Shown here: piece after piece, positions 4,991 through 40,939 of the stretch
Numbering within the stretch: the stretch's first letter is position 1
Layout: the number at the start of each line of letters is the position of its first letter
Assembly (NCBI GenBank): GCA_948567375.1
Contig: OX419760.1
Coordinates: 16,740,001-16,804,000 of the forward strand
Source of the DNA: Lunularia cruciata
Lineage: Eukaryota > Streptophyta > Marchantiopsida > Lunulariales > Lunulariaceae
Reading direction: 5' to 3'
DNA length: 64,000 bases
Translations under genes and position numbers: made by a program
The notes under the pieces: model-generated
Database searches by the model: none
The model's input: the letters and a program-made list of their open reading frames with translations, nothing else
Told to the model about the DNA's origin: nothing

Positions 4991-5139
4991 TTCTCTTCAA
5001 AGTAGACCATTTGCTCCTTGGTGAAAAAGAATATCCTCCACCATTGTATAAGTCTAGATCTTGTTGCAAGAGCCTTCCTCTCCCTAACATGCATCCCTTC
5101 TGGAAAGTTACTTCTTGTCACAAAATCCACAATCTCCTT

Positions 5140-5500
5140 TTACTCCATTGGAACCTCTTGAGTGACTGAGATTGTCATGAGCTCCTCATCCGGGAAGGAA
5201 TCATCCACTGGCTCATCTCCATCATGATCATAGGCTCTAGATAACAAGTCAGCATTTGCATGTTTCTTTCTTGGCCTATCCTCAATGATGTAGTCATACT
5301 CAGACAAGAGTATCATCCACCTTGCTAGTTTCTCTTCAATATTAGGCCTGTTGAAGATGTACTTCAAAGACTTGTGATCTATGACAATAGTGGCTTTCCC
5401 TCCAATCAAGTAGTGTCTAAACTTCTTGTAACCAGAGATCACTGCCAACCCTTCTCTCTCGGTGATAGAGTAGTTCTTTTCTGCTGAAACCATTTGCTTA
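5140..5500 (-). pseudogene. G2 RNase H region
   Basis: The translation contains EKNYSITEREGLAVI, KFRHYLIGGKATIVIDHKSL and LSEYDYIIEDRPRKKHANAD, the standard Ty3/gypsy RNase H signatures, followed by the linker to integrase (ARERKAL-type). RNase H would remove RNA from the RNA:DNA hybrid during reverse transcription. Confidence 0.85.
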
Positions 5501-5639
5501 CTAGCATAAGCTATTGGATGATCATGCCCACCTTGGAGATGATGTGCCCCAAAAGTAGACCTTCTTCACATCCAAAGATACACTTCTTTGGTTTGAGTGA
5601 TGCATTTGCCTCATCCAAGCGTTGCAAGACTTTGATTAG

Positions 5640-10749: not shown

Positions 10750-11200
10750 TGTCACGCCATTTGTAGTATCGTATCTAGATTGCTTGGACATTGGAGTTCC
10801 AATGATAGTAGTTAGAGTTATTTCAGTAATATCTCAGAGACTACTTTCCGACGGTCAAATATTGTGTTCAAGGTACTGACTTTACGGTAGGGTCCACCGT
10901 CACTTTGCACTGTTCACATCGTCGAGTGTGCCGTCAGTGGGACTATTAGGGTTTTAGAGCTAGCTCGAGTCCAGGGGGTATAGTTTTGAAGTGAGCTCTA
11001 GAGAGCTCACTTCTTTGATGTTAAGTCTTTGAGTTCTTGACTATGGTGGACACAGGCCGGCAAGCGTCACCTGGATTCTCTATGCTTGAGTGGGTGTGGC
11101 TTGATTGTAATCAGTGCCCAGTTGTTAGGAGTTTATAGAGTGATAGATCAAGTACTAATCTAAGTTGAGCTGAGTTGAGAGTGGTAAGCAATCTGATTAT
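10750..11200 (+). repeat. M 5' LTR piece
   Basis: The sequence from TGTCACGCCATTTGTAG to CAATCTGATTAT matches 28420-28860. It lacks the ~103-bp segment that begins the complete LTR at 28317. Differences from the 3' copy are about 45 substitutions, nearly all transitions, plus one 10-bp length difference in a GAGCTCT-type repeat. Confidence 0.88.
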
Positions 11201-11212
11201 ATCAGAGAAGTG
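11199..11212 (+). other. M primer-binding site (probable)
   Basis: TATATCAGAGAAGT abuts the LTR end and shares TATCAGAG with the initiator-methionine tRNA site TGGTATCAGAGC that is typical of plant LTR elements. Confidence 0.5.
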
Positions 11213-12430
11213 AAGTTAGGGGGAAATCGAGTATAGGAACTTTGAGTGTTGGTGGTATCTCCAAGCTCAATGGATTGATTGGTAGCTCGATTCAAGTTCA
11301 GTGTTTCCCTAGTGTGCAAAAACTCATTCAATTGATGCAGATTTGGCAATTAGGCAAACCATGTGCAGAAGCACTGGCCAAATTTTGAGCAAAGAAGGAG
11401 TAAATTTTGAGTAGTGGTTGTGATTTTGAACTTAGGAGGTGAAGGCAGGATCAATTTGTTGCGAGTTGGGCTCAGAAAGTCAAATTGAAGGTGGGGTTGG
11501 GAAGCTATTCTCATGAATTTGTGATTTGGAAAAACCTGTGTTGTCAATTTGGCTCGAGTGTAAAGTTAGCTAGGGATTTGGCGGACAACCAAATTTAGGG
11601 TTTACGTTAGATTTTGGTTGGAATTTACATCAGATTTTGGCCAGATTTGGAGGAGTTTTTCTCTTTGGCTAGATTTGGAGGACTTTCGCAAGTTTGGAGA
11701 CGTTTCACCAATTTTGGAGGAGGTTCAAAGTGGCAAGAAGAAAGGCCTCATTTGGCATTTAGAAGCTTCGAGGCATAGGGCTGTGGGCTATGAGAGGCTA
11801 CAAAGGCCTAGAAGGGCCAGCAAGCTAGCTTGCTGGTGTGAGGCTAGCTAGTTTAGAGTAGATCTTGGTCATTGGTTGGCAAAATCTGTCTTTCTTGCTA
11901 GATTGTGCGTAACAGGTTTTGACCCCTAGATCTCTTGTTCCTAGACTGGTGCTCTAGCCAACTAGTCCACCCTCACTTGTTGTCAAAGTGACTGTGCCAT
12001 TGTTATCTATACACATGTAGCTTTGGCTAAGAGAGGCAGTTTGATCCCATTCTTGGTGATCCTAGTAGCTTAGGACTTAGATACAAACTTCTCTTATGTC
12101 AAATGCCAAATGGTGGCAAAGTCAATCTCATGTTATGTTATGAGATGAAGTGTTTTCATTTAGATTTCTTGTGATTGGACCCCCTCCATTCTCTGCTTCC
12201 TATTAATGCACCACGTTTGTGTGAGGTGCCCTGACTTTTGAGTGTTGGTGTTCTAGTGTGCTCTCAATAGTGAGGTTGGAGTGATGACCAGTAAGACTAC
12301 CTTTGTTTCTCTCCGGTGAGGCAGGAAGTGATGACCTGTAGACCGTGAGAGTGTGTGTTATGATGGTAGGTTACAAGTTGTCATTTCCCCTAGTGTAGTT
12401 ATTTTGGTTAGAGTTACATTAGTGGGTGGT
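11213..12430 (+). other. M leader, no gene recognised
   Basis: About 1.2 kb separates the primer-binding site from gag. It holds several short frames with no family I recognise, a palindromic stretch around GCCAGCAAGCTAGCTTGCTGG (near 11816-11836) and a tRNA-like relic on the opposite strand at 11905-11976. Confidence 0.5.
11905..11976 (-). repeat. tRNA-derived relic, possible SINE head
   Basis: Read on the minus strand, TGGACTAGTTGG (11959-11970) matches an A box and GGGGTCAAAACC (11915-11926) resembles a B box, with AGAGC after the D loop and tRNA-like spacing. The stems pair poorly, so it is not a working tRNA gene. It is either an old tRNA pseudogene or the pol III promoter of a SINE; no tail or target duplication was found. 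Confidence 0.4.
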
Positions 12431-12474
12431 GCTTAGTTGGTGTTGGCACTTGGTGGGGCACTTGCGGTTGCAAC

Positions 12475-13970
12475 TTGCGGTTACAATTGGTGGTTTGGGT
12501 TTACTGTTGTGGTTACTTGGTCACGACAGAGTTCTTTGGGGATTCCAGAGGAGATAACACTACAATACATAGTGGGTTTACTCGGAGTGGTGCTCGGTAT
12601 CAGCTTGTATCTCAGGTCTCAGTGAGGGAGGAGATTGACTCTAAGTTGGAGTTTGACATAGGAGCTGATTCAGTTGAGAGTGCACTTGGTGTGTCCGCAC
12701 TGTTGTTGTGGGACATGGATGAGATATATAGGGCCTCCAAAGGCCCTAGGCGTTACTTTGGTATAGTGGGTACCATTGAGTTGGATGACTTCATCCAAGA
12801 GTTTGATAGTAAGTGTGATCTGCAGTTGATGCGGAACCCGACTTTGTTCACACCCTTCATGGCATGGAAAGGGTTGTTTCAGCACTTGGAGGGTCAGCTG
12901 ATGGATGACTACCATGAGTTCAAGAGAACTCATTTGGAGGAGATTGAGTTATGGAGACAGTATTAGTCTCTACACTATGTCTCCATCACTTCAAGCTCGG
13001 TGGCAAGAGTAGATCGGCTGTACCTACGAGTTGTAGCTCGAGTAGTGTGGGTGGAGCTAGTGGAGGTGCACTAGTTGGAGATAGTGCTACTACAAGTGGA
13101 GGTACTACTGAAGGAGGTGGTGTGGTACCGGAGTTTAACCCCATGGTGGAGTTCTTCTTGTGTTTGAGGCAGAACTACCAGGGAGCGCGGACTGACAAGC
13201 TGAGGAGCTTGCAAGAGTTCCAACAGAAGGCTGGAGAGAGCCTACGCGAGGCATACACTCGCATCACACGGCTGATCAGTTTCACTCAGGGAGTTATTGA
13301 GGCCCAGGCAGTCCAGTTTTGGTATAGGATATTGGACAAGGAGTTGCAACGTAGAGTTTGTGATGCTACATTGTCATAGGCTACTTTGCCTACTTTGGCA
13401 GTGGTCTTTGGTTTGGCTGAGCATATTGAGCTCAACATGGTGGAGGAGAGAGTGGTGACATTTGGATTTGGTAGGGAGACCTCATCCACGGCTGTGACTT
13501 CTTCTAGAGTGCAGAAGAGTGCACCACGCCCAGTTGGTTTTTGAGGACAGGGTGGACAGCCTATATCCTATGGAGCGAGTAGAGGGCCTAGTGGAGTTAG
13601 ACCCTTATCCTCATTTTTGGGTCAGCAACAACCAATGAGTGGTGGTGTTGCTTGTTGGACTTATAGTGGACCTCACCATCGGAGAGAGTGTACTCAAGGC
13701 AATGGACCTAATACCTTGGGTGTATCACAACCAGCACAGAGGCAGTGTGAGCATTGCCACAGATTTGGTCACACTAGTGACCGGTGTTTTGACCAACACT
13801 CGGAGTTACGGAGTGGTAGGGCTGCTATGGCAGGTAGTAGAGGAGCTCCAATTCATGGAGGATTAGGTGGTAGAGGTGGTGGTAGAGGATCTAAACCTAG
13901 TAGGGGTGCAATACCTACCCTTACTTCTGATACAACTATGGCTTCTTGGATTGAGCAGTTGGAGTAGAGA
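12475..13970 (+). pseudogene. M gag region with CCHC zinc knuckle
   Basis: The translation shows a helical capsid-like region (DFIQEFDSKCDLQLMRNPTL, WKGLFQHLEGQLMDDYHEFK, at about 12780-12930), then LRSLQEFQQKAGESLREAYT (about 13200-13260), and a zinc knuckle at 13745-13788 reading CEHCHRFGHTSDRC, a perfect C-X2-C-X4-H-X4-C. A Gly/Arg-rich stretch follows (GGLGGRGGGRGSKPSRG), common downstream of Gag knuckles. It would package the element RNA. Confidence 0.8.
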
Positions 13971-14639
13971 TTGGCTAGTATGGCCATTGCTCAAAGGAGA
14001 TCAGATTTGGGTGCTGAGGCTTCCACCTCATATGCTTAGGATAGAGATGCTTTGGACTTCATGTGCGGAACAACACAAGTGGATGCATCTACAACAATGA
14101 CTAGGAGTGCAGTACGTGCTCCAGAGCCTAGAGGAGCATCAGTGGAGTTGGACCCACAGAGAGGAGAGGTTGGGAGACAGGTCAGACTTCCCCAGTCTTT
14201 CACACTATCTAAGGCATTGTAGACGACATCCATGGTTTCTAGATGTCCCAGTGCAGGTGTGGTAGGTGGTGATGGAGTGCATGATGGACTACCTGCTAGT
14301 CAGCCACCTACTACAACACAGACTGAGTCTAGCATGATGTTGGGGGTGGCTCAGCTGATTATGCGGCATCCTTTGTTTTCGGCTAGTGACATGTTTACAT
14401 TGGGAGTTGACCTAGCCCCATTGTTTCGGTTGGCTGCCATGTTGTGTGAGAGTAGGGATGGTGCGGTTCCTACTACCAGAGCAGAGGTGGTTGGTAGTGG
14501 AGCTGACTTGGTTGAGGAGCATGGGATCCGTTCAGTGACCATTGGTTTATGGCAGGCAGTAGTGGCTAGAATGGAGGAGTTGCCAATTAGACTGGCCTTT
14601 GAGAGAGCATGGTTTACACCTGGTGTTGTCCTATTGGAT

Positions 14640-15090
14640 AACTAGAGGGGGATTTTCCATTTGGTGGGACCTTCAAGGAAGGTCTATACACCATAGAGAG
14701 TCTTGTTAGACCCTAGTGCGTAGCCCCTTATGTTGGGGAAGGCTGTAGTTGTTGGTCTGGAGTTACAGAAGACCGATGTGGAGAGGTGTCCATTTCAGAT
14801 CCAGACATCTCTAGGTGGTGGTTTGACATAGTACATCACACGTAGAGAGATTGTTGTCCAGGTTCAGCCTGGTCATCCGACTGATAGCTTGGTGGTGAGA
14901 GCTCAAGTTATTGCAACAATAGCTGAGTCATATGATGTGCTAGTTGGGGGAGCACTGTTATACCCCATGGGTTTCACCATTGACTATTGGGAGGAGACAA
15001 CCTCTTATAGACCTAGTTGGCAGTCTAGTGAGGGACAGGTATATCGCCTACAAGTACGCTTTAGTAGTGGCAGTCTTTGCTCACTATAGT
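14640..15090 (+). pseudogene. M protease-like region
   Basis: The segment has a VLLDPSA-like active-site loop near 14705 and later VVRAQVIATIAESYDVLVGG followed by LLYPMGFTIDYW (about 14890-14990), which matches the flap and C-terminal part of retropepsin-like proteases (the hydrophobic-DVLIG-LYP pattern). It lies where a protease is expected, between gag and pol. The call rests on position and weak motif similarity. Confidence 0.5.
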
Positions 15091-15371
15091 CCCGGACCAT
15101 GGCAGCATCAGTTTTAGCTTTTAGTGGTGCAGTTACTTGGCTTGGTGACTTGTTGGAAGGGAATGCCCATGCAGAGGATACTCCAGTACTAGAGGAGATC
15201 ACTCGGCTTTGGAGTACGAGTGGGATTGTTCCATCCACTTTGGATGTTCCATTGTGGAGTTCCAAGGAGGCATTGCAGTAGCATGCATATCAATTGGTGC
15301 AGTAGGCTTGGAGTGGAGCCTTCGTACCATCAGGAGATGAGTGTGAAGATGAGCCTCTAGAGGCAATTGCT

Positions 15372-16310
15372 GTGACACCTTTGGATACCACACTCATTGC
15401 TTGGCAGTATCCAATAGAGGGGATATGCCTATTGGAGTTGTTTGGTGGGATCAGCACCGGACTAGCTGTGGTGTTATATGCGGGTATACAAGTACAGAGG
15501 TACTTGTATGTAGAGAGAGATGAGACTGCTAGGCGAGTCTCTCTACACCATGTGGCACACTTGGCCTATTGCTATCCGGAGTTATTACCAATGTCAGCAG
15601 TCAGAGGTTACCAAAAGGCCCTATCAGGAGACATTTCTTTACTGGGGGCGCATGACCTAGAGAGACATGGGCCTATTCACTTGGTGATTTTTGGATGGCC
15701 ATGTCATGGACATACACATGCTGGTAGAGGATTGAGTCTTCAGGATCCTCGTTCTAGTGTGTTTTGGGAGATGTTACGTATACTACGACATCTCCAGGTT
15801 CATCAGTCTGTTTCTCCAACTTACGAGAATCACCTTCCTTTGATAGGTGATTCTTGCACTAGAGTGGTGGCAAGTACACATTAGGTCCATTCTTGGATGG
15901 GACCTGTTGTACTGTTAGATGCAGCCAAAGTGGGATCACGTGCTCATCGTCTTCATCTTTGGTGGATGAACTTCTTACCCAAAGAGGTTCTACAATGTGC
16001 TTATGATGGGATTCAATGACTAGACCACATTCTTGTTGATGATATCTTAGATGTTGGACATCAGTCTCAAATAGTGGTAGTGGCTGATAGGTCACCTATG
16101 GCAATGGTGAACCTAGTTGGACAGCCTAGAGCCGCATTTCCCACAATCATGAGTTTCCCAAGCTCTCATGCTTTTTGAGAGGGAGGACCTTGTTTGGGAC
16201 TCACAGTTACAGCAATTGGTGGAGCCCAACGCTGATGAGAGAGAGCGGGTGATGGGTTTTCGCAACGGTATTACCGTTGTTCCACCAGTGTTAGAGGCAT
16301 CCAAGTGTTG
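15372..16310 (+). pseudogene. C5-cytosine DNA methyltransferase domain (DNMT3-like) within M
   Basis: The region encodes, in order: motif I LLELFGGISTGLAVV with GIQVQRYLYVERDE (15429-15524), motif III GDISLLGAHDL (about 15628-15660), motif IV HLVIFGWPCHGHTHAGRG with the catalytic-type Pro-Cys at 15699-15704 and then LQDPRSSVFWEMLRIL, motif VI-like YENH (15822-15833), motif VIII-like SRAHRLHLWW (15936-15965), and a C-terminal block NADERERVMGF (about 16228-16260). The pair GGI-TGL and GIQV-RYL closely resembles DNMT3 (FDGIATG, LGIQVDRYIASE). The order is unpermuted, unlike plant DRM. The enzyme would transfer a methyl group from S-adenosylmethionine to cytosine in DNA. It lies between protease and reverse transcriptase, so it looks like part of the polyprotein. 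It is a fossil with a few breaks. Confidence 0.85.
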
Positions 16311-17559
16311 TCGTGGGGAACGTTTGGTCTCAAGAGTGCGCCGAGCACATGGCTGCTTGTGCTTAGTTTTTCCCTACTGTCCTTCTTTTGGGTCTTTCCC
16401 GTAGACTGACATTCCTTCCCTACTCTTGGATTGTCGGGAATTTGTCTCTATATGAACTTGTTGTTTCAGTTCCCTGAGGTTGGCTTCCCTGAAGGTTTTT
16501 TTTTATCCTTGACTTTCATAAAATTAATCTTGTCATGCAAGTCTGGTGTTATGGTTTCTACCTCTTCCTGGTCTCATATTCTATTTTCACATCAGGTTCA
16601 AGCTATGGTTCGGGATCTGGCAGTTCATAGACCTAGGTAAGGTGACCCTTTATTAAAATAAAAGAAATGACAACTGACAAATGACAACTGAGTGATCTAA
16701 CAGAACATAAACCTGGGGCACCCAGATCATTTAATTATGCTATTCACATGGACCGGACTGAGAGCTCCTAGAATGGAGTTTTCCTCAACTCTAGTCACAA
16801 TTCATAACACAAATCTGCTTCCAAGACTCATCATTCATAGGAATTTCAACAACAAAGTTCACAAGGTTGGATAAGTCAAATAGTTCTAGTCAAGACAATG
16901 CCTGCCTAAGGTTGCAATTGCTCATCAACTCAGCCTGGCACTTCACATATGCTCTCTCCGACAGCAGACAAGGCAACTCATCCTCCGAACCTCTTCATTC
17001 TCCTATGCCATGTTTTGCAGATCAGATTCACTCCATTTAGACAGGCCAACCAACTTCAAATCTTTTCTTGTCCTTGCTCCAGATGAGCTGATCCACTTCA
17101 AAATTCTCCTCCTCTTCTTCCTGACTAGCTCCTATCACTGCATGTTCAGTCACTCTTCACAACATTTCCTAAAAAAAATAAAATATCTTTCTTCTTCACT
17201 CCTATCCTCACCTTTGGGAGATTACCCATCGGCAACTTATGCAGCAAATCCCCTTCAGACCTGCAAAAATTTCTCTCCCATTTTGTCCTTCATCACTCTA
17301 TCCACATTTTCCCACAGAAATCTTCCTTCTTCAGTCTTGTCCTCACCTTCGTGAGAGTTCCCTTATGCAACTCATGCAACCAACCCTTGAGACCTACAAA
17401 AATTTTCTACTCCAACTACTCACAACCCTTCACAGTCCTGCCCTTACATTCCATACATCTGCCCTCTGTCCAAGCTTTCAACTCCTGCAATTTTCCAGCC
17501 TTTACATTCATGCAAAATTTCTCCTTCTTGCACCTCACAAAAACCCCTTCTTCTTCCTG

Positions 17560-18213
17560 CAAAATTTTCTTTCTCCCAGCCTTCTCTCTCCTGCAAAGTC
17601 CTTCACTCTCTTGAGAAGAAAAACTTTTTGCCTTGCACTCTCAAGCCCTAACAATCCTCTTGCAAAAATTTTCCTTATGTCCCGGCACCTCTCTCCTGCA
17701 CATGCTCCATTCCTTCAAGAAGAAAACCCTCCCTTGCCTTGCTGTCTCAAGCCCTAGCATCTCCTGCAAAAATTTTCTTTCTCCTAGCCCTCTCTCTCCT
17801 ACACTCTCTCCTTTGATTCTCATGAGAGGACAAACTTTTGCCTTGCACTCTCAAGCCCTAGCATCTCCTCCTGCAAAAGTTTTCCTTCTGTCCCAACACT
17901 TCCCTCCTGCACATGCTCCATTCCTTCGAGAAGAAAACCCTCCCTTGCCTTGCTGTCTCAAGCCCTAGCATCTCCTGCAAAAATTTTCTTTCTGTCCCAA
18001 CACTTCTCTCCTGCACATGCTCCATTCCTTTGAGAAGAAAACCCTCCCTTGCCTTGCAGTCTCAAGCCCTAGCATCTCCTGTGAAAATTTTCTTTCTCCT
18101 AGCCTTCTCTCTCCTGCACTCTCTCCTTCGATTCTCTTGAGAAGAAACAATTTTTGCCTTGCACTCTCAAGCCCTAACAATCTTCCTGCAAAAATTTTCC
18201 TTCTGTCCTAGCA
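17560..18213. repeat. Tandem array 1 in M, unit about 104 bp
   Basis: Units built around CACATGCTCCATTCCTT, GAGAAGAAAACCCTCCCTTG, CTCAAGCCCTAGCATCTCCT and GCAAAAATTTTCTTTCT recur about six to seven times. Two unit types alternate (a CACATGCTCC type and a CTCTCTCCTTCGATT type), so there is some higher-order structure. Confidence 0.85.
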
Positions 18214-18650
18214 CTTCTCTCCTGCCAAATCCTCTCCTGTCCAACTCAAAAATTCCTACCACTTCTCTCTCTTGTCCAACTCTTCACTTCTTGGGCATTT
18301 CTCTCCTGCCAAACCCTCTCCTGTCCAACTCAAAAATTCCTACCCTGATTGTTCTTCTGTCCAAACCCTTCACTTCTTGAGAATTTCTCTCCTGCCAAAC
18401 CCTCTCCTGTCCAACTCAAAAATTCTTGCTCTTATTGTTCCTCTGTCCAAACCTTTCACTTCTTGAGAATTTCTCTCCTGCCAAACCCTCTCATGTCCAA
18501 CTCGAAAATTCCTGCCCTGATTGTTCCTCTGTCCAAACCCTTCACTTCTTGAGAATTTCTCTCTTGCCAAACCCTCTTCTGTCCAACTCAAAAATTCCTG
18601 CCACTTCTCTCTCCTGTCTAACTCTTCACTTCTTGAAAATTCCTGCCACT
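18214..18650. repeat. Tandem array 2 in M, unit 86 bp
   Basis: TTTCTCTCCTGCCAAACCCT starts units at about 18214, 18298, 18384, 18470 and 18556, giving five copies at 84-86 bp spacing and a partial sixth. The period is not a multiple of three, which argues against a coding repeat. Confidence 0.92.
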
Positions 18651-19599
18651 TCTCTCTCGAAACTCCTCTCCTCATTTCCCGAAAATCCTTGTCTCTCTCA
18701 AAAATCTCTGCCAACTTCTCCTCTAAGGCAAGTCCTCTTTCATTCCCATAACGTAAACAAAACCTGAGCTAGTGTAACCCCACATTATTTCTTGGCTCAA
18801 GCCACATTAAAAGACTCCTTGAGCTAATAACACCATAACTTTTTCCAGCTTCACAATAATATAGGAAATATTGCCCGTGGCAAGGTAGCATAAAACCACA
18901 CCTGAGACATATTGACATAAATCCATGTTCCCTACAAGAACTAAAAGAGAAAAGAAAATTTATCACACAAAGCCTCAAGGGTACACGTGGGCTATTTTCA
19001 CGACGACAACGTCAGGTGAGGTCAGGCTATGGACTTGAATTGTTTGACTTGGATTGTGAGCCTTGGCTTGGTAGAGCAGCATAGGATGTGCTTGATAGGC
19101 ATCACCACTCGGACACTTGTGAGCCCTGTGCCTATTGAGACGATTTAGGCACATGCTAGGGGCGATGGACTGAGTGCACATGGTATTCTTGGGACACATC
19201 CAATAGCTACTAGGGAGAGTGGTCTACTTGGAGTCCATCCAGGTGAGCGTGGGCTACTTGGATTACACTCTTGGTCCACATGGGATGCAGCTAGAGGACG
19301 TGTGGAGCTTGCAGCCGGAGTGGAGGGAGTTTTTCACACAGAGGTTGGGACCTCTAGTGGTCGAGAGCATGACACTATTGCTCCCAAGGGCCCAATGTAG
19401 CAGCCAGTCAATATGTCTTCCACTCCTATGATAATTACAAAGGACACTTGGTAGCCAGATCTTGGACCCAAGCTTACTGGAGAGGAAAGACAAAGGGTTT
19501 GGAGGTTCTTGAGGAGCCACACGAGTTTTTTTGCCTTCAGTATGAAGGATTTGGGTGCTCTGAAGAAACCTGGTATACGGATTGAGCTGACTAGCAACA

Positions 19600-20880
19600 C
19601 ACTAGTTTTCTGATGTCCTTATCGATATAGTGATATGGAGAGGATATTGATTCAGAGCCGGAGTAGTGACCTTTTTGAGGCTAGTTTGGTGGAGATTTCA
19701 CATGGAGAGAATGCATCAACGACAGTGATGCTAGCCAAGAATGATATGCATGGCAACTATACAGATAGGAGGATGTGTGGAGATTACCGTCCTATCAACC
19801 GACAGACTAGGGCTGATTGGTATGCCATGCCTACACCGAAGGAGATTTTTGATGCGATTGGGCATGCAAAGATCTTCAGTACTTTGGATCTTCGAGCAGG
19901 ATATCATCAATTGCCGATCAGGGAGGAGGATAAGTCCAAGATAGCATTTTGGGCTTATTGATCCTCACGGCAAGGATGTGTTATATCAATGGAGGTTCTT
20001 ACCATTTGGGTTAAAGAATGCTCCTGCTGAGTTCCATAGGGTCATGGATAGGATCCTAGCTGGATTGGATTTTGCTTGGTGCTATATTGATGACATTTTG
20101 GTTTATAGCACTACTATGGAGGAGCATGAGAGATAGTTGTTGGAGGTGTTTGAGAGGTTGAGATCTCATGGACTCAAATTATATCCTAGCAAGTGTAGGT
20201 TCTTCCACGAGCAAGTTGAGTATTTGTGTCACACTATCTATCTCGGAGGACTTGGTGTTTAGCAGACCAAGGTGGAGGCTATTGCACGTATTCCTTGGCC
20301 TACGGATGTGAGCAGAGTGTGAGCATTCCTTGGGTTGGCAAACTTCTATCACCGGTATGTTAGAGGATTTAGTGCCATTGCCAAGGCCTTGACGAAGCTG
20401 ACCAAGCTTACACAGGAGTGGTGTTGGGGAGATGAGCAAGAGAGAGCTTTTGTAGAGCTCAAGGAGAGGTTGACATCTACTCCTATTTTGAGGAGACCAA
20501 TTAGGGGACGACCATTTCAAGTTCATATTGATTGGAGTATGTTGGGGCTTGGAGCGGTGCTCACCTAGCATGATGATGAGGAGAAGGAGTTTGTGGTGGC
20601 CTATGCTAGTTGCTCCAACAATTCAGCGGAGGTGAAGTATAGTTCATATGAGGGAGAGTGCTAGGCAGCAGTTTGGGTAGTAGCACATTTTTTATGTTAC
20701 CTATTTGGTAACCCCTTCACTCTCATCAATGATCATCAGCCGCTGAAGTGGTTGATGGAGTACGACAAGCTTTCAGAGAAACTTGCACAATGAGCTCTGA
20801 TTTTATGGTTGTTCATAGACCTGGAGTGGTGAACTGCAATGCAGATGGGTTGAATAGAAACCCATGTCCCAGCCAGTAGG
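19600..20880 (+). pseudogene. M reverse transcriptase and RNase H region
   Basis: The translation has RRMCGDYRPINRQTRADWYA, IFSTLDLRAGYHQLPI, the palm catalytic YIDD at 20083-20094 followed by ILVYS, then FLGLANFYHRYVRGFS and the RNase H start FQVHIDWSMLGLGAVLT and INDHQPLKWLMEYDKL. These are standard Ty3/gypsy motifs. The line is distinct from both the G family (DYKKLNG type) and the C family (DYRGLHKQT type). C1 interrupts the element shortly downstream at 21003. Confidence 0.88.
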
Positions 20881-20997
20881 ATCAGACCGGAGCACGTTGG
20901 CATGGTGAGATAGATGAGGAGATGGTGCCAGGTTGGCATGCATCGGCCTTTTTGTGTATATTTGTAGAGGCTTTGGTGGTATCTCTCTCAGCACATA

Positions 20998-21002
20998 CAG
21001 GA
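20998..21002. repeat. Target-site duplication of C1 (left copy)
   Basis: CAGGA at 20998-21002 is repeated exactly at 26646-26650 on the other side of C1. Confidence 0.95.
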
Positions 21003-21425
21003 TGTAAAAGACCGAAACCGAGGAGAGAAATAGGAGAATGGAAATTCACATTGGGACACTTGAATGAGGGAAAACTCCGAATGCCTAGCATGAGCTTTGG
21101 CCTTGGTATTTATAGGTATCATACAAGTCCCTTGAAGCTTCTCAAGAAGCTTCCTTGAGCCGCTTTCTTGGAGTGCAAGCCAAGTTAACTAGGAAGCTTC
21201 TCAAGAAGCTTCCTTCTAGAAGCCACCTACTTGGCGTGCAAGCTAAGCTAGTTAGAAGCTTCTAGAAGCTTCCTTCTAGAAGCTACCTGCTTAGGGCGCA
21301 AGTTAACTAGTTAGGAAGCTTCCTAAGAAGCTTCTTAGATGCTTCTAGAATATTCTAGGCTATTTTGTCTTATTCTCTACTTCGTAAGCTCAACTAACTT
21401 CGTCACTAAACTCCATATTGTTACA
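21003..21425 (-). repeat. C1 3' LTR
   Basis: In element orientation it begins TGTAACAATATGGAG and ends CTTTTACA. A dense run of GAAGCTTC and TTCTAGAA blocks lies at about 21135-21355. Confidence 0.95.
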
Positions 21426-21440
21426 TATTCCCCCGCCGCT
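21426..21440 (-). other. C1 polypurine tract
   Basis: On the minus strand the sequence AGCGGCGGGGGAATA abuts the LTR start TGTAAC. Confidence 0.85.
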
Positions 21441-21477
21441 AGTTGGTGACGTCCTCGTCGCCAGTGAAGCTTCGAAT

Positions 21478-21640
21478 TCCTTGATGGCCATCTGTGCATT
21501 TTGGAGGTGAGAAAGAGGTTCCCATGTAGCATCATGAAGGGGATACCCTTTCCAAAGGACCTTGTACTCCGTATGTTGGTGACGGCCTTGTTGAATATGG
21601 CGACGCGCAAGGATACGGTCAACTTCGTACTCCTCATGAT
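21478..21640 (-). pseudogene. C1 chromodomain
   Basis: The C-terminal part of the integrase reads EEYEVDRILARR, then EYKVLWKGYPLHDATWEPLS and LQNAQMAIKEFE. The VLWKGY and ATWEP motifs are diagnostic of chromodomains, which in chromoviruses steer integration to methylated-histone chromatin. This places C1 in the plant chromoviruses. Confidence 0.93.
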
Positions 21641-22760
21641 CATTGATAGGGACAGGTAGAGGGGGAAGTTGGACTCGAGAGGAAAAGGAAGAAGGGTTAG
21701 GAACAAAGGGTTTCAACTTGGAAATATGAAAGACAGGATGGATACGCATGTGACAAGGTAAGGCAAGACGATAAGCAACAGGAGAGATAATGTGGGTGAT
21801 ATCAAAGGGTCCTATCCAATTAGGAGCAAGTTTACGAACTTGGGTATCAAGTGGGAGAGGGAGGTTACTAGAGGATAGCATGACTTTATCACCAACTTCA
21901 AAGGTGAGATCACGACGATGATGGTCTGCATATTGTTTTTGGCGATTCTGAGCAACAAGGAGGTGAGATTTGGCTTGTTGGAGAGATTGGGATATAGTGG
22001 TCAAGAATGTAGAAGTATGAGGAACCTGAGAGGGAAGGGGAGCAAGAAGAGAATCTGGAACAAGCGGATCTTGGCCAAAATTGAGAAAGAAGGGAGAAAA
22101 TCCAGTGCTTGCCTGTTTGGAATTGTTGTAGGCAAATTCTGTAGCTGCAAGACATTCATCCCAGTTGGTATGGTGGACATTGACAAAGGCCCGCAACATA
22201 TCCTCCAATGTTCGATTGGCGCGTTCGGTTTGTCCATCAGTTTGAGGATGATAGGCCGTGGACAAAGCAAGCTTGGTGCCGAGTATCTAGAAGAGTGCTT
22301 GCCAAAACTTCCCGGTAAATCGAGGATCACGGTCGGAGATGAGTACACATGGCATCCCATGATGCTTGAAGACATTGTCGAAGTAGATTTGTGCTAAGGT
22401 TGGAGCATCCACGGTATCACAGGTTGGTGCCAAGTGGATTTGCTTACTAAGCTTATCCACAAACACCACAATTGCCGTGTGTCCTTGTTTTGTCTTTGGC
22501 AAGGATGTGATGAGATCCAAGCTCACATGCTCCCAACGAGCGGATGGAATGGCGAGTGGTTGAAGGAGTCCACTCGGCTTCTGGTTGGTGGCCTTGTTCC
22601 GTTGGCAACTCTCACATGATCGGACAAAGTCTCGAACATCTCGTGTCATGTTGGGCCACCACCATTGGCGTTGGAGGGTGCCCAAGGTCTTGTCCACTCC
22701 CATGTGACCAGCTATTGGTAAATCATGAGCTTCTTGAAGGCGCACAAGTCGAAGATCACC
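21641..22760 (-). pseudogene. C1 integrase region
   Basis: The N-terminal zinc module is complete by eye (H-IAGHMGVDKTLGTLQ and CESCQRN, about 22600-22730). The catalytic core has WEHVSLDLITSLPKTKQGHT, IVVFVDKLSKQIHL and, later, TAYHPQTDGQTERANRTLED. The C-terminal part carries the GDKVMLSSSNL and RKLAPNWIGPF motifs typical of chromovirus integrases, leading into the chromodomain. Confidence 0.9.
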
Positions 22761-22778
22761 TTTGGTTGGAACATAGAT

Positions 22779-24100
22779 CTAGTCTGCATGGAATAAAAGG
22801 CCTTCCTTGAAGGAGAAGGTGTTGTACTCCTTGTCACGTGCTGTTAGACGACCGTGTACCATTTGAAAGAAGGGATCTTGCTGTAGGGCTAACCGAAACT
22901 CGTTATGAATCTTGGGATCAATTGACACCGTTGTAATTGCTGCCATGATGAGAGGAAGAGACTTCAAATCAGGTCGTCGTGATAGAGCATCAGGGATGAC
23001 ATGGAACCGACCTGGTTTGTACTCAAGTTTGATGTCGAACAATTGGAGTTGCTCTTCCCATCGATGATGTCGACTCTTCATGTGCTCTAGGTGTAAGGTC
23101 TGCAACAATGGCTTGTGATCAGTTCGCATGATCACTTGTTTCCCCAAGAGATAATGCCTCCATACCTTGGTGGCATATACCATTGCAAGTTGTTCCCGAT
23201 CCCGAGCAGAGTAATTTCTTTCCGCTGTATTTAGTCGGCGAGACACAAAGGCAATTGGATGTAGTCCATCTAGAAATTCTTGTTGCAACACAACTCCAAT
23301 TGCAAAGTTAGAAGCATCAAAATCAACCACACAAGGTAGTTGAGGATCATATGGTTGAAGAATAGGTCTTGAAGACACCATATGCTTTAACTTCTGGAAT
23401 GCTTCTTCATGCTTGGTGGTCCACTGGAAGCTCGAGTTCTTTCCCAAGAGGTCAGTCAATGGTGCAGCCACGTGAGCATAATAGTGGATGAATCGTCGAT
23501 AAAAACTGGCCAGTCCATTGAATGCTCGTACTTCTGTAGCATCCTTTGGGGTAGGCCAATCAGTAATGGCCTTGATCTTCTCTTCTTCCATCTTGATCCC
23601 CTCTGATGAGATCTTATGACCCAAGAAGGTAACCTCCTTCTGCCAAAAAGCACACTTTGACTTCTTGCAGTAAAATTTCCACCGTCGTAGTCGTCTTAGG
23701 ACTTCTCGCACATGATTCACATGTTCTGCCTCTGTCCTGCTATAGATTAAGATATCATCTAAGAACACCACCACGGACCGATCTAATAGTCCCTCCAACA
23801 CTTGATGCATCTGATCCATGAAGACTGCTGGAGCATTAGTGAGTCCAAAAGGTAGAACTCTCCACTCAAAATGTCCATACCTTGTGCGAAAAGCAGTCTT
23901 TTGCACGTCCTCTCCTTCAATAGGAATTTGCCAATAGCCGCTACGAAGATCCAGCTTGGAAAAGTAGCGTGCTCCACTTAGTTGATCAAGCAAGTCATCG
24001 ATCCGAGGCAAGGGATATGCATTCTTCACGGTTTGCTTATTGAGCCCACGGTAATCAATACAGAAACGAAGTCCTCCATCCTTCTTTGGAACAAATAGTA
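22779..24100 (-). pseudogene. C1 reverse transcriptase and RNase H region
   Basis: Motifs include [65 protein letters not shown] (catalytic F/Y-X-DD block), then RNase H signatures [34 protein letters not shown] and [16 protein letters not shown]. Length and order match chromovirus Pol. Confidence 0.93.
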
Positions 24101-24128
24101 CCGGTGCTCCCCACGGAGAGGTACTATG

Positions 24129-25025
24129 TCATATGAAATCCTTCTCCAACAACTCTGTAAGTGTTGTTCGCAACTCCTCCAACTCCTTTGGTGAGAGCCG
24201 ATAGATTGGTCTACTCACTGGAGTACTCCCTGGCAATAACTCGATCTTGAAGGGCATACCTCGATCGGAGGGTAATCCCTTTGGCAGATCATCCGGAAAC
24301 ACATCTGCAAACTCCTGAACTATCCGATCAACCATTGCTTGATGCGGCACTTGGCCCTCCTCAGATTGTTCTTGTGCAATCGGCTTGATCCACACCGCGA
24401 ATACAGACTTATCGTCCTCCAAAGCTTGCTCTATGGCTGCTTCATTCACAAACTTCCCTTCTAGGGACTCATCTCTCTTCCAAGCTTGCTCCATGGTTGC
24501 CTTCTTGGCAAACTTCCCATCTTGGGACTCATCTCCCTTCCAGATTCGCTCTATGGCTACCTTCTCGACAAACTTCCCATCTTGGGACTGACTATTCTTA
24601 GGTGTCTTACTCAGAGGTGCCAGACAACCTAATCGGAAATTCCTACCTTGGTGTTGTACTTGAATTTGGTGTCGGGTCCAATCAAATTGAACCTTATGAC
24701 ATTCAAGCCAAGGTAGACCTAGAATGATATCATAATGTAGAGGTGCCACTACGAACCTCATACACTCCAAATACTCCTTCCCAATCTTGAAGGTAACAGG
24801 ATGCAAGGTGCGGAATGCAGAACCCTTTCTACCATCCGCCATCATCAAACTACTTCCAATCACTGGCCTGATAGGAATACCCAATTCCTTTGCCACTTGC
24901 ATAGATATGCAATTCTCTGAACTTCCAGAATCAACCAAAATTCTACAACCCCGATTAGATATCATACCTTGCAAGTGAAGCAAACTTGCATAGGTCGAGC
25001 CTTCAATCCCATTGGAACTAATCAA
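24129..25025 (-). pseudogene. C1 protease region and pol linker
   Basis: The retropepsin active-site loop reads ILVDSGSSENCIS (about 24900-24945), followed by YDIILGLPWLECHKVQFDW, the flap and C-terminal signature. Downstream lies a segment with a three-fold imperfect repeat of about 60 bp (SQDGKF and EGKF blocks, 24430-24600) before the linker to reverse transcriptase. Confidence 0.88.
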
Positions 25026-25051
25026 GCTCCCAGTAGGCGGCTCGAAATCTC

Positions 25052-25951
25052 CTACTGGGATTCCTCGTTTCCCGGATCATTCCGCTCCACAACCTTCACT
25101 TGGGCAACTTGTCGAGGTTGTCTATTCTTGAGTGGACATTCAACAATGCGATGCCCCAACTGGTGACAATAAAAGCAACCTCCATTTTGTCGTAATCTTT
25201 CTCTATCTGCTGTGCCAAGTGGTCTTCGCTGGATAGCATCAATCTCCATTGGTACCGGTTCTTCCACTCGTGGTACGGGTAGGTTTTGTGTAGGTCGAGG
25301 TCGAGACCAAGTTGTTGCAACTAAGGAATCAAAACGCTCAGCCAATTGCATGGCTTCTTCTACGTTCTGTGGCTCTCGCATGGTCACCTCCAATCTGGTT
25401 CGTGACTTCAATCCTCGCACAAATCGATCCAGAACTTCACCTTCTTGGATATCTGGAATTTGCATGATGATATTCTGAAATTGTGTGATGTAGCTTCTCA
25501 CCGAACCAATCTGCCTCAACTCCGCCAATTTATCTCGTGCAGCTCGGGTGGCATTTATAGTCTGAAATCGACCAAGTATTGCATCCTTGAATTCTACCCA
25601 TGTCAAAATTGGTGTAACAATTTGTCGTTCAGCTCTTTCTACTCTGAATCACCACCAAAGTTTTGCCACGCCATCCAACTGGCTAGAAGCCAAGAGAATT
25701 TGTTTCCGCTCATCTTGAAGATTGGTGGCTTCAAAGTAACGTTCACAGTCAAGCACAAAATTTTCCACTGTGCCTGGAACATTCTTGCCTTCAAACACCT
25801 TGGGTTTCGGAAATCGAATGCGATCTTCTCCATCTCGAACTGGCGCTCTGTCTATCTGTTCTCGTCGTTGCTGGTCTCGTTCATCCAACAATCGGGTAAG
25901 ATGCTCGATTTGTTGTTGCATTGCAAGGATAACATCCGGTATTGCGGCCAT
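25052..25951 (-). pseudogene. C1 gag region
   Basis: The frame starts at MAAIPDVILAMQQQIEHLTR near 25951, includes a capsid-like region (DCERYFEATNLQDERKQILL, AELRQIGSVRSYITQFQNII, VLDRFVRGLKSRTRLEV) and a CCHC zinc knuckle CFYCHQLGHRIVEC at about 25135-25180. C2 carries the same protein at about 60510-61400. Confidence 0.92.
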
Positions 25952-26207
25952 TGCTACTACCCTAATCCACTACCCTCAATTTATCTAGTTGATTAACACA
26001 TAGATACAACACGTCCACCGTTCTCCATAAGTCACAACTGGAAGTATCAAGGGTTCCTCTAACACGGTGATCATATGTAGAAAATTCTGCCCAAAGCGTG
26101 AGGTGATGAACTGTGTGAAACGATGCTTTGGTAATATCTGGACATGAAAGTCCCAATGGTTTGGCGGAAGTGGATTTGGTGGTCCATAAATTCCATCCAT
26201 CCCATTC

Positions 26208-26222
26208 CTGCTCTGATACCAA
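26208..26222 (-). other. C1 primer-binding site
   Basis: On the minus strand TTGGTATCAGAGCAG follows the 5' LTR, an initiator-methionine tRNA primer site. Confidence 0.92.
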
Positions 26223-26326
26223 TGTAAAAGACCAAAACCGAGGAGAGAAATAGGAGAATGGAAATTCACATTGGGACACTTGAATGAGGGAAAACTCCAA
26301 ATGCCTAGCATGAGCTTCGGCCTTGG

Positions 26327-26334
26327 TATTTATA
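26327..26334 (-). promoter_or_regulatory. C1 LTR TATA box
   Basis: On the minus strand the sequence is CTATAAATACC (TATAAATA core). The same box is at 60133-60140 in C2. It lies just downstream of the GAA/TTC cluster. Confidence 0.7.
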
Positions 26335-26354
26335 GGTATCATACAAGTCCCTTG

Positions 26355-26575
26355 AAGCTTCTCAAGAAGCTTCCTTGAGCCGCTTTCTTGGAGTGGAAGC
26401 CAAGTTAACTAGGAAGCTTCTCAAGAAGCTTCCTTCTAGAAGCCGCCTACTTGGCGTGCAAGCTAAGCTAGTTAGAAGCTTCTAGAAGCTTCCTTCTAGA
26501 AGCTACCTGCTTAGGGCACAAGTTAACTAGTTAGGAAGCTTCCTAAGAAGCTTCTTAGATGCTTCTAGAATATTC
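26355..26575 (-). promoter_or_regulatory. Cluster of heat-shock elements in the C1 5' LTR
   Basis: The consensus for heat-shock factor binding is alternating nGAAn and nTTCn pentamers. Here GAAGCTTCTAGAAGCTTC (about 26472-26491) is four contiguous perfect pentamers, and TTCTAGAATATTC near 26563-26575 is three more. Further GAAGCTTC pairs lie at about 26355, 26367, 26412, 26424 and 26537. The cluster is directly upstream of the TATA box in element orientation. Activity under heat is an inference. Confidence 0.7.
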
Positions 26576-26645
26576 TAGGCTATTTTGTCTTATTCTCTAC
26601 TTCGTAAGCTCAACTAACTTCGTCACTAAACTCCATATTGTTACA

Positions 26646-26650
26646 CAGGA
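26646..26650. repeat. Target-site duplication of C1 (right copy)
   Basis: CAGGA, identical to 20998-21002. Confidence 0.95.
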
Positions 26651-26725
26651 GGAGTTATTGAGGTCACAGATCCAAAGAGTGAAGATATTGGTACAGTTCA
26701 GTGAGACATTCATGATGATGTCTTA

Positions 26726-27640
26726 GTGATGGACTATCTTTGCACTAGTGTTGTGGGTGGCACAGTTGGAGCCAAGGAGAGAGAGTGTGTTCTTCAGCAA
26801 GCCAAACAGTTCAGATTGGAGGATAGATCCCTTTTGCATGTATGGGAGGATGGTAGAGTACGAGTAGTACCACTTCCATCTCAGAGACCACAATTGGTCC
26901 GTCATGCTCATGAGGAGCTAGGACATTTTGGAGTAAAGCGTAAGTATAGCTTACTCCAAAGTCATTATTGGTGGCGCGGTATGCAAACCAAGGTACAACA
27001 GTTTGTTGCCAGATGTGTGGTTTGTGACCGAGTTAGAGCATCATTCAATGCTCTTATGCCACAATTACACCCATTACTTATCATGGGATTGGGTTACCGT
27101 TGGAGTTTGGACTTCACCGGACCTTTACCGCTGGTTGTGAGACATCATTGGTATGTTTTGGTGATGGTGGAGCACTTCTCCAAATGGATTGAGTTGGTGG
27201 CACTTCTTGACAAGTCTAGTGAAGGGACAACTTACTCATTCTTGGATCAAGTTCTTAGTCATTTTGGTGCACCAGTTGAGGTTTTGACTGATCAGGGTAC
27301 ATAGTTCTTGGAGGGAGTTTCAGGTCTTGTGTGACAAGGCTTTGATTGATCATCGTACTACATCCCAAGATCACCCTGACGCAGATGGCTTAGCAGAGAG
27401 AGTGGTTCAGACGGTGAAGAGAGGATTGTGAAAGTATGGTTTGCAGAGAGGCCACTTGGGAGATTGGGCTCTCCAATTACCTTGGTTGGCCATGGGCTAT
27501 CGGTTCAGCCAGCAAGCCTCCTTAGCATCCTTCTCTCCATACTTTCTACTCTATGGACAAGATCGAGATTTATCTGCAGCCATTTGTCAAGATGCTATTG
27601 TAGTTTTGGACTTGGATGACCCTGATGTATAGATGAGCGT
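26726..27640 (+). pseudogene. M integrase region
   Basis: The translation begins with RDRSLLHVWEDG-type sequence, then an HHCC module (RHAHEELGHFGVKRKYSLLQ, CVVCDRV; about 26900-27035), then the catalytic core with WSLDFTGPLPLVVRHHWYVL and VEVLTDQGT (about 27100-27304), and a core end with PSPYFLLYG-like sequence. It is the continuation of M after the C1 insertion. Confidence 0.87.
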
Positions 27641-27848
27641 ATGTTTTCAGTGGGTAGAGATCTTTTGGAGAGTGATGTCGATGGCCTTTGAGAACTTGGC
27701 AATTGCTCAGCATACAGATACTTTATGCTATGCTACCATTCAAGGAGGAGGTTATAGACCCTTGATCCATTGATTTCATCAAGAAGACTATGTATATCTA
27801 TAGCAAACAACACCAACGACACTTGATGTTTCTACAAGCCACACTATC

Positions 27849-28148
27849 TTGAGAGTGCGGGAGGTTTTGCCATCTAGAGTCCTTGTGTTAGAAGGACATG
27901 ATGGTGTTGTTTGGAAGGATCATGTGTGCAATTGTGCACCATGCCACCTCACAAACATTGATGGTACTATGGACCCAAGCTTGGCACTTGTATGTGCAGG
28001 CTTGAGGTGTATGTTATGTGGCTCTTCTGATGGAGCTGCTACTATGTTAGTGTGTGATAGCTGTTTGAGAGGATGGCATATGGTATGTATGACTCCTCCC
28101 CTCATGGTGGTTCCTCAAGGACAATGGCTATGTCCTAGATATACTTGA
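27849..28148 (+). pseudogene. M integrase C-terminal part with PHD finger
   Basis: After VREVLPSRVLVLEGHDG and WKDHVCNCAPCHLTNIDG, a PHD finger begins at 28008: C-M-L-C, then CDSC, GWHMVC, TPPL and GQWLCP, running to about 28142. The C-X2-C ... C-X2-C-X4-H-X2-C spacing with the Trp and Pro-Pro-Leu is typical of PHD fingers. These read histone H3 tails (often Lys4 state). In chromoviruses a chromodomain takes this place; here a PHD finger does. With the methyltransferase domain it gives M both a writer and a reader of chromatin marks. DNMT3 proteins carry a related PHD-like (ADD) module, but the two domains here are far apart. Confidence 0.88.
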
Positions 28149-28302
28149 CCTATAGCTAGTTCATTCTTTATATGGTATAGATTGCAGACAGGCGACTAAT
28201 GATGGGGCTCCATAGCACCCAGCCTCTTGATCTTTGCCCATTAGAGGGTATACCATATACTTAGAGTAGATGGCTATTTGGAGTTAGAGGGACCTAACCG
28301 CC

Positions 28303-28316
28303 AGCTAGGGGGTGAT
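28303..28316 (+). other. M polypurine tract
   Basis: AGCTAGGGGGTGAT directly precedes the TGTGGCAC start of the complete LTR. This placement is the main reason to set the LTR start at 28317. Confidence 0.65.
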
Positions 28317-28860
28317 TGTGGCACTTTAGAGTCTATGACTTATGTGTGAGTTGTGCTTCTATAGTGTATGATGTTGACAGCGATGTATGTTGTGTAGCGA
28401 TGTATATACGCAAGACAGTTGTCACGCCATTTGTAGTATCGCATCTAGATTGCTCGGACACTAGAGTTCCAGTGATAGTAGTTAAAGTTATTTCAATAGT
28501 ATCTCAAAGACTACTTTCTGACGGTCAGATTTTGTGTTTAGGGTACAGACTTCACGGTGGGGCCCACCATCACTTTGCACCATTCACACCATCAAGTGTG
28601 CCATCAGCGGGACCGTTAGGGTTTCAGAGCTAGCTCAAGTCCAGGGGGTATAGTTTTGAAGTGAGCTCACTTCTTTGATGTTGAGCCTTCGAGTTCTTGG
28701 CTATGGTGGACAGAGACCGGCGAGCATCACCTGGATTCTCTATGCTTGAGTGGGTGTGGCTTGACTGTAATCAGTGCCCAATTGTTGGGAGTTTATAAAG
28801 TGATAGATCAAGTACTGATTTGAGTTGAGTTGAGTTGAGAGTGGTAAGCAATCTGATTAT
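28317..28860 (+). repeat. M 3' LTR, complete copy
   Basis: The 544-bp copy begins TGTGGCACTTTAG at the polypurine tract and ends CAATCTGATTAT, the same point at which the 5' piece meets its primer site. Inside it, at about 28413-28426, lies GACAGTTGTC, an inverted-repeat motif that marks where the outer ends of the whole M insertion fall. Confidence 0.8.
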
Positions 28861-28982
28861 TGTGGCACTTTAGAGTCTATGTATGACTTATGTGTGAGTT
28901 GTGCTTCTATAGTGTATGATGTTGACAGTGATGTATGTTGTGTAACAATGTATGTTGTGTAGCAATGTATATACGCATGACA
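28861..28982 (+). repeat. Extra M LTR fragment (first ~103 bp of an LTR) at the right end
   Basis: TGTGGCACTTTAG to GCATGACA repeats 28317-28416 with a few small length differences (a repeated ATGTATGTTGTGTA unit). It is followed by the G2 LTR. The 5' LTR piece lacks exactly this segment. Confidence 0.9.
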
Positions 28983-40730: not shown

Positions 40731-40939
40731 AACCAATGGATGATTCCTTCCCATATGAGGAGCTCATGACAATCTCAATCACTCAAGAGGTTCCAATGGA
40801 GTACAAGGAGATTGTGGATTTTGTGGCAAGAGGTAACTTTCCAGAAGGGTTGCATGCTAGGGAGAGGAAGGCCCTTGCAGCAAGATCTAGACCTTACACA
40901 ATGGTGGAGGATTTTATTTTTCACCAAGGATCAGATGGT

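Follow-up and report, generated by a model that had tools for sequence, protein, structure and literature searches.

Retrotransposons that carry a DNA methyltransferase are known but rare, as a preliminary description of the locus studied here had noted, and the published relative of our element is KnitGypsy-Dnmt3 of the alga Klebsormidium. In the sections of their paper on which we draw, de Mendoza et al. (2018, PMC5890265) report purifying selection on KnitGypsy-Dnmt3, hold that the K. nitens lineage acquired it independently, and describe yeast assays in which it gave no methylation, a result that they deemed inconclusive. Its repeats have the A-coding-B-A-B structure of SymbioDIRS-Dnmt3 from Symbiodinium, for which the same sections demonstrate de novo CG methylation in yeast. 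Streptophyte retrotransposon DNMT3s are also mentioned, citing de Mendoza et al., in the part of PMC12344493 available to us, and the text of Morozov et al. that we used (PMC6338049) gives retrotransposon methylases as absent from land plants.

In the openly available main texts searched, we found no description of a DNMT-bearing land-plant retrotransposon, of a PHD finger together with one, or of the readthrough site described below. The main text of de Mendoza et al. (PMC5890265) lacks the words PHD, Marchantia, moss and readthrough, the REXdb survey (PMC6317226) lacks PHD, methyltransferase and Marchantia, and the word retrotransposon is missing from the main text of two reviews (PMC8566409, PMC9516144). 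Here we describe such an element, M, from the liverwort Lunularia cruciata. It lies in a window of 64,000 nucleotides (the whole stretch analysed; contig OX419760.1, positions 16,740,001 to 16,804,000), and coordinates below are those of the window, on its forward strand unless stated otherwise.

Anatomy of element M

M occupies 10750..28978. It is a decayed member of a Ty3/gypsy family that is large and was active recently, with the layout A1-gag-PR-MTase-(TAG)-RT-RH-IN-PHD-B1-A2-B2 and two nested insertions. Its limits follow from blastn of related copies and from its termini, TGTCACGCC...GACA, which are flanked by CTAG and CCAG, a 4-bp duplication with one mismatch. The 5' terminal repeat A1 (10750..11200) is 88% identical to A2 with gaps counted; of 441 sites compared, 43 differ by a transition and 3 by a transversion. 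It is followed by a broken gag-like region (12781..13499; 85-88% amino acid identity to ORF1 of a preserved copy) and a protease-like region (14748..15059; 85.6% identity to the PR region of the copies). The Retrotrans_gag profile matched two of the three ORF1 frames scanned, below its cut-off (E 0.06-0.07). A DSGAQ protease motif is visible by eye in one copy, and gag-asp_proteas and Asp_protease_2 match one Closterium and one Klebsormidium relative, near or under their cut-offs.

The broken, DNMT3-like C5 methyltransferase domain comes next, with motifs I to IX at 15405..16305 (residues 1-303 of 331, placed by DNMT3A and PF00145 matches and the copy alignment) and motif X (GQAMD) at 19020..19088 (residues 308-330, placed by motif and copy alignment). 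Between them lies nested insertion 1, of about 2.7 kb (16304..19009, no strand assigned), which appears as a gap in the copy alignment and whose edges are uncertain by a few bases. This insertion carries an almost perfect inverted repeat at its ends (TGTTGTCGTG / CACGACGACA) and contains internal repeats of about 105 bp. Downstream are the ORF1/ORF2 boundary TAGCAGCCA (19398..19406), a readthrough-type stop (UAG-CARYYA) conserved among copies, the reverse transcriptase (19701..20421; 90.5% amino acid identity to that of the copies) and RNase H (20422..20805, from the copy alignment). Nested insertion 2, a gypsy element on the reverse strand (21003..26644) with 422-bp LTRs that are 98.6% identical, parts these from the DDE-type integrase (26834..27434; motifs and copy alignment) and from a PHD finger that forms the C-terminal part of the integrase polyprotein (27990..28145; copy alignment, with PF00628 at E 7.4e-10 in one copy). 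By eye, this young gypsy element has a chromodomain-like C end and a 5-bp duplication, CAGGA. Repeat comparison places B1 at 28317..28419, A2 at 28420..28860 (from its match to A1) and B2, the 3' end of M, at 28861..28978. Further gypsy-like remnants lie at 1054-2945, 4415-6737, 39652-41539, 56095-57994 and 62404-63998; four of them were placed in the reverse transcriptase tree, where they fall into two local groups.

The preliminary description, of a methyltransferase domain at 15372..16310 between a protease-like region and the reverse transcriptase of a Ty3/gypsy element with a PHD finger, is confirmed. The one preserved ORF2 scanned (1,037 aa) matches RVT_1, RNase H, H2C2, rve and PHD, and the domain does lie between protease and reverse transcriptase. 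However, 16310 is not its end, since motif X is found beyond insertion 1, and the reverse transcriptase is reached only across that insertion.

The methyltransferase and its affiliation

The 192-aa open frame at 15306-15881 has DNMT3A as its best match among proteins of known structure (E 4.7e-5), followed in order by DNMT3B (2.4e-3), HaeIII (0.026), chain 4onj (0.098; its entry is named just 'DNA methyltransferase', and we take it to be DRM) and DRM2 (0.14). Against PF00145 (DNA_methylase) this frame scores 21.4 bits (E 1.9e-4), marginally below the 22-bit cut-off, whereas all three better-preserved copies scanned pass it with 30.4-31.2 bits (E 1.9e-7 to 3.4e-7). The cytosine methyltransferase first proposed for this place is thus borne out by the DNMT3A match and by the profile matches of the copies, and the profile check suggested for it falls just short in the window copy itself.

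Across the family the motifs run in unpermuted order, I to X with PC, ENV and AHRxR. A permuted DRM-type domain (VI-X before I-IV) is rejected for M; the host's true DRM is permuted. Among 20 copies, LFGG, PCQ, ENV, AHRLR and GQAMD are each present in 19 and ERERAMGF in 18, and PCQ, E-N and AHR-R are invariant in an alignment of six element sequences; motif IV reads ECQ, not PCQ, in Closterium P0042 and metagenome P0041. An open methyltransferase with PCQ, ENV and AHRLR together is found in just 9 of 21 copies, the window's counted. The window copy has three stops in aligned codons plus frameshifts; the Pro-Cys of motif IV noted earlier is there but reads PCH, and the region taken for motif VI is altered. 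This copy is dead, and is cut before motif X by the nested insertion.

A Marchantia relative taken alone also has DNMT3A as its best match (E 1.7e-8; best DRM-type chain 4onj, 2.6e-3), and a profile of the six element sequences gives DNMT3A at 1e-24, 4onj at 6e-14, chains named DRM2 at 4e-12 and HhaI at 3e-10, with no chain named DNMT1 among its 57 structure matches at 1e-3. The predicted fold (pLDDT 78) has a TM score to DNMT3A of 0.81 by target length and 0.60 by query length, and all 50 entries listed by a search with it belong to the DNMT3 family. Thus, on profile scores and a predicted fold, the element methyltransferase is closest to DNMT3 among C5 methyltransferases of known structure, in line with what its motif I had first suggested.

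In a tree without phage sequences, 45 element rows, hand-picked out of 116 nearly full-length element methyltransferases, are monophyletic (100/99) with respect to a single host DNMT3 and a single DRM. A scan of viral contigs gave 67 C5 methyltransferase loci, of which 14 were taken for a second tree and 13 were long enough. There, 19 element rows form one clade (100/100, and 100% of 200 bootstrap trees), none of the 13 phage methyltransferases joins it, and a phage or bacterial origin is rejected. Element and host DNMT3 are grouped in 0% of bootstraps, on long branches and with one native DNMT3, one DRM and the 13 phage enzymes as references. The DNMT3 affiliation is read from profile scores and fold, not from the tree with outgroups.

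Copies in the Lunularia genome

From 2,161 first-look candidates, a DNA_methylase family search of the genome (565.77 Mb in 74 contigs) yielded 123 scored matches, among them host methyltransferase exons. Of the first 28 loci, 24 (L005-L028) match the window methyltransferase at 85-90% amino acid identity, and L001 does so weakly. L001 is DNMT3-like and L002 is a permuted DRM (DRM2 E 1.6e-103); read by eye, L004 is DNMT3-like and L003 CMT/MET-like. All four look like host genes on their sequence. The host DNMT3 used for comparison, L040, lies at C7:31984500-31994400, and a second DNMT3-like gene at L041. When 15306-16310 was used as a DNA query, 40 of 6,897 candidate places were scored, and 39 of these are loci outside the window copy, at 91-92% identity. 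The domain is not confined to the window copy; its absence from all other copies was what the preliminary description had named as refuting it.

Twenty loci with long methyltransferase-containing frames were taken, 9.9 kb each. Preserved ORF1 frames reach 1,428 aa from stop to stop, and match DNA_methylase at E 1.9e-7 to 3.4e-7; two CCHC knuckles can also be made out in them by eye, as can a protease motif. The domain order is gag-PR-MT-RT-RH-IN-PHD in 19 of the 20 loci, and L017 differs from it just by the missing gag, which puts the methyltransferase between protease and reverse transcriptase in every one.

We estimated abundance from 60 random places drawn on eight large contigs, 20 of which were examined at 1.5 kb each, counting a piece as M-like if it aligned to at least five of the 20 loci. 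M-like DNA was present in three of the 20 pieces and made up 13.0% of 30,000 bases, with an exact binomial range on 3/20 of 3-38%; M is a major family whose genome fraction is poorly known. A1 and A2 differ by 0.7-2.7% in eight copies, which together show 48 transitions and 8 transversions, and by 10.4% in the window, which shows 43 and 3; their identity over 16 loci runs from 91.7% (L013) to 100% (L021, 285 bp). With a plant substitution rate of 7e-9 per site and year, these divergences correspond to roughly 0.5-2 million years for the eight copies and about 7 for the window, the latter probably an overestimate given the high mutation rate of methylated cytosines. The part consulted of a report on the 580 Mb Lunularia assembly attributes most of its extra size to Ty3/Gypsy bursts (PMC9985172).

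The readthrough stop

ORF1 and ORF2 are in frame and parted by a TAG after the methyltransferase in 20 of 20 copies. The stop is followed by CARYYA in 19, with L028 deviating. The part of PMC5382211 used here gives UAG-CARYYA as the type I signal for readthrough in tobamoviruses, among others. By chance, CARYYA would follow a particular stop about once in 512 cases; as the 20 copies share descent, its 19 occurrences count as a single conserved site. Frames of Marchantia (P0004, P0005) and metagenome (P0014, P0016) relatives likewise end 74-115 residues past the methyltransferase. Since ORF1 stops past the domain in all 20 copies, at a TAG with CARYYA in 19, we expect synthesis of the enzyme at the level of Gag; from these reading frames we infer that it is produced together with Gag and protease, ahead of the readthrough point. 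The layout gives a sharp prediction, namely that the enzyme would be present at Gag stoichiometry.

Repeat layout and integration

Direct A repeats of at least 268 bp link both ends in 16 of 20 loci; in the stretch taken, L010, L016, L017 and L025 are without a normal A pair and show, respectively, 77 bp, none, none and an inverted match. The order A1-internal-B1-A2-B2 was found in the window and in all eight loci read at both ends, their 5' ends being in or near reach (L011, L012, L014, L015, L018, L026, L027, L028). This layout rejects an ordinary LTR pair, with two identical full LTRs at the ends. Identical 4-bp flanks surround TGTCACGCC...ACGACA in all six copies with both flanks (CATA, GAGG, AACC, TCCT, AATG, ACTT). 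The B1/A2 junction (28405-28435 in the window) reads GACA-GC-TGTC (GACAGCTGTC) in six of eight copies, with the variants GACAGTTGTC in L012 and the window and AACAGCTGTC in L027, and by its sequence it looks like two element ends joined with two bases added. A two-repeat circle opened at the B|A junction would yield an A-int-B-A-B molecule.

Another way to view this layout is against the marks of the two element orders. Like Ty3/gypsy elements, M has gypsy-type domains in the order RT-RH-IN, an integrase of the DDE type and a short target duplication, and it has the split direct repeats of DIRS elements. The usual DIRS element, however, has a tyrosine recombinase and no target duplication (PMC6696364, in the part consulted), whereas M has a 4-bp duplication in 6/6 copies and the four frames scanned gave an rve integrase and no phage-integrase (tyrosine recombinase) match. 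Split repeats together with a DDE integrase pose a replication puzzle.

The PHD finger

The one M ORF2 scanned gave no chromodomain match and has a PHD finger after the integrase instead. All eight zinc ligands are retained in 20 of 20 copies, and seven of the eight in the window. Its nearest solved relatives are the PHDs of CHD4, PHF12, KMT2D, KMT2C, KDM5, KAT6A, PHF21A, DPF3, ATXR5, WSTF, BAZ2, UHRF1 and AIRE, several of which (CHD4, KDM5 and UHRF1 among them) read H3 unmethylated at K4. Any ligand assigned to the finger of M would be a guess, with KAT6A, DPF3 and WSTF also among those relatives.

Relatives of M

Protein searches gave 43, 47 and 341 matches (the best 120 of the 341 used), scored from the 7,994-7,996 candidates sharing most words. 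Element methyltransferase relatives among the matches listed come from Marchantia polymorpha, M. paleacea, Riccia sorocarpa, Calypogeia fissa, Sphagnum fallax, S. troendelagicum, S. tenellum, Closterium strains, Klebsormidium nitens and many metagenome records, the closest named ones listed being from liverworts and Sphagnum. The order PR-MT-RT holds in all 15 proteins whose PR and RT could both be located (Marchantia, Sphagnum, Closterium, Klebsormidium). Nine metagenome proteins have RT-RH-MT-IN-PHD instead, some partial ones fitting this order (among P0025-P0041), and so the methyltransferase occurs at two places in Pol.

In the reverse transcriptase tree, a branch supported at 99/99 and present in 98% of bootstraps separates 19 methyltransferase-bearing rows from five methyltransferase-free gypsy rows, all from the window; in another tree, with a single outgroup row, P0045 stands beside the outgroup with weak support (59/71). 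With the window's five as the methyltransferase-free rows compared, this topology fits one capture of the methyltransferase and one move within Pol, a reading that runs against the published independent acquisition in K. nitens. The methyltransferase of Sphagnum troendelagicum P0108 groups inside liverwort rows (92/83; 94/70 with phage rows), which hints at horizontal transfer between bryophytes or at old paralogues.

Selection and sequence composition

Mean dN over mean dS, for 20 copies per domain (19 for gag) with the window excluded, is 0.24 for gag, 0.27 for PR, 0.36 for MT, 0.18 for RT, 0.26 for RH, 0.64 for IN and 0.27 for PHD; these copies were picked for a long ORF1, which flatters intactness and lowers dN/dS. 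The methyltransferase value is above those of gag, PR, RT, RH and PHD, and only IN is higher. Identity between Lunularia M and Marchantia proteins is 62-72% for MT (five proteins), 64-66% for gag (three) and 68-77% for RT (two; a third covers only 16%). The methyltransferase is a fixed part of the M family, with catalytic motifs retained in most copies examined and dN/dS well under 1.

The 20 M copies have a CpG o/e of 0.44 and a CWG o/e of 1.43. As CpG o/e is 0.42 in 17 random non-M pieces, CG depletion does not set M apart, and as a sign of self-methylation it is not diagnostic. The copies differ mostly by transitions, like silenced elements, so the methyltransferase does not spare them.

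Proposed function and its alternatives

Our best explanation of the whole, to which we give a probability of about one half, combines methyltransferase cargo at Gag level, self-methylation of cDNA and PHD-steered integration. Most ribosomes would halt at the TAG and yield Gag-PR-MTase, and a few would read through to give Gag-PR-MTase-RT-RH-IN-PHD, making the methyltransferase a structural-level cargo of the particle. We infer that the enzyme methylates M's own new cDNA before or at integration, probably at CG, a preference modelled on the SymbioDIRS-Dnmt3 enzymes in yeast. The PHD finger would steer integration into silent chromatin, where a premethylated copy might do little harm and meet little response, which could let the family reach high copy number.

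It is unlikely, though credible, that the methyltransferase instead acts in trans, spreading methylation or disturbing the dosage of host DNMT3 and DRM, with silencing hijacked or saturated. Substrates and partners exist, since the host encodes a DRM and a DNMT3 of its own that bears a DUF3444 tail, and the copy number of M is high; the placement of the domain before the readthrough stop, however, would point to a particle and not to a free nuclear enzyme. We find it distinctly unlikely that the fold is retained with no catalysis, the domain instead binding DNA or RNA within Gag, say, or serving as an oligomerisation module. A structural role would also be expected to give dN/dS below 1, and some relatives have ECQ in place of PCQ, but this role sits poorly with PCQ, ENV and AHRLR each being kept in 19 of 20 copies and with the invariant PCQ, E-N and AHR-R of the six-sequence alignment. 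Very unlikely, in our view, is a shield for cDNA against host nucleases or a defence against DNA viruses; Morozov et al., in the text available (PMC6338049), propose the antiviral role for retrotransposon methylases, arguing partly from their absence in land plants, which the land-plant members found here contradict. The broken state of the window copy might by itself suggest a host gene or retrocopy that landed by chance in one copy, or a passenger drifting in a few, but the methyltransferase sits between PR and RT in 20/20 long-frame copies and at the same place in 15/15 database proteins and has dN/dS below 1, so that chance insertion is refuted and its probability practically nil.

Self-methylation with PHD-steered integration can be set in a broader frame, which we regard as possible but doubtful. 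M would then belong to one ancient streptophyte-wide Ty3 lineage, from Klebsormidium to liverworts and Sphagnum, with a single DNMT3 capture, Gag-level packing through a plant-virus-type readthrough, cDNA premethylation and PHD-guided DDE integration of a permuted A-int-B-A-B molecule, and it would be among the main causes of the doubling in size of Lunularia's genome.

Because M is abundant in a liverwort and has relatives in other bryophytes, land plants too host DNMT3-bearing retrotransposons: such elements occur in several bryophytes and are abundant in one genome. Bryophytes such as Marchantia can be transformed, which makes it testable why a parasite carries the enzyme used to silence it. 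Surveys of plant DNMT3 should screen out element copies, because public Marchantia gene models include them.

Comparison with known systems

We take the K. nitens proteins P0080 and P0087 to be KnitGypsy-Dnmt3, by species and kind and not by accession. Both lie within the element methyltransferase clade, and P0087 has the order PR-MT-RT-RH-IN. As described in the sections used (PMC5890265), KnitGypsy-Dnmt3 resembles M in its Gypsy domains, its unpermuted DNMT3-type methyltransferase in Pol and its DIRS-like repeats, and its lineage shares both the methyltransferase clade and the reverse transcriptase clade with M, the methyltransferase-free rows compared being the window's five. It differs in its algal host and in P0087, a record marked partial, having no PHD match; those sections of PMC5890265 mention neither a readthrough stop nor a target duplication, and both are present in M.

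SymbioDIRS-Dnmt3, compared by description only, is likewise a retrotransposon DNMT3 with A-coding-B-A-B repeats and the methyltransferase inside Pol, but has a tyrosine recombinase where M has a DDE integrase (PMC5890265, same sections). Plant DNMT3s, represented by Physcomitrella PpDNMT3 (Yaari et al. 2019, PMC6453930, in the part consulted) and the host DNMT3 L040, share with M an unpermuted DNMT3-type catalytic domain. The host gene, unlike M, has exons and a DUF3444 tail (E 4.6e-8), a tail typical, in the same part of PMC6453930, of DNMT3 in non-flowering streptophytes, and all 200 bootstrap trees set the element methyltransferases apart as a clade of their own. Chromoviruses (compare 21003-26644 in the window) are like M in their Ty3/gypsy Pol and in carrying a chromatin-reader module past the integrase; M differs in having a PHD finger instead of a chromodomain and in its distinct reverse transcriptase branch (99/99). 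Compared with these systems, the land-plant members, the PHD finger and the readthrough design are new within the literature searched; the DNMT3-bearing retrotransposon itself is known from a charophyte alga.
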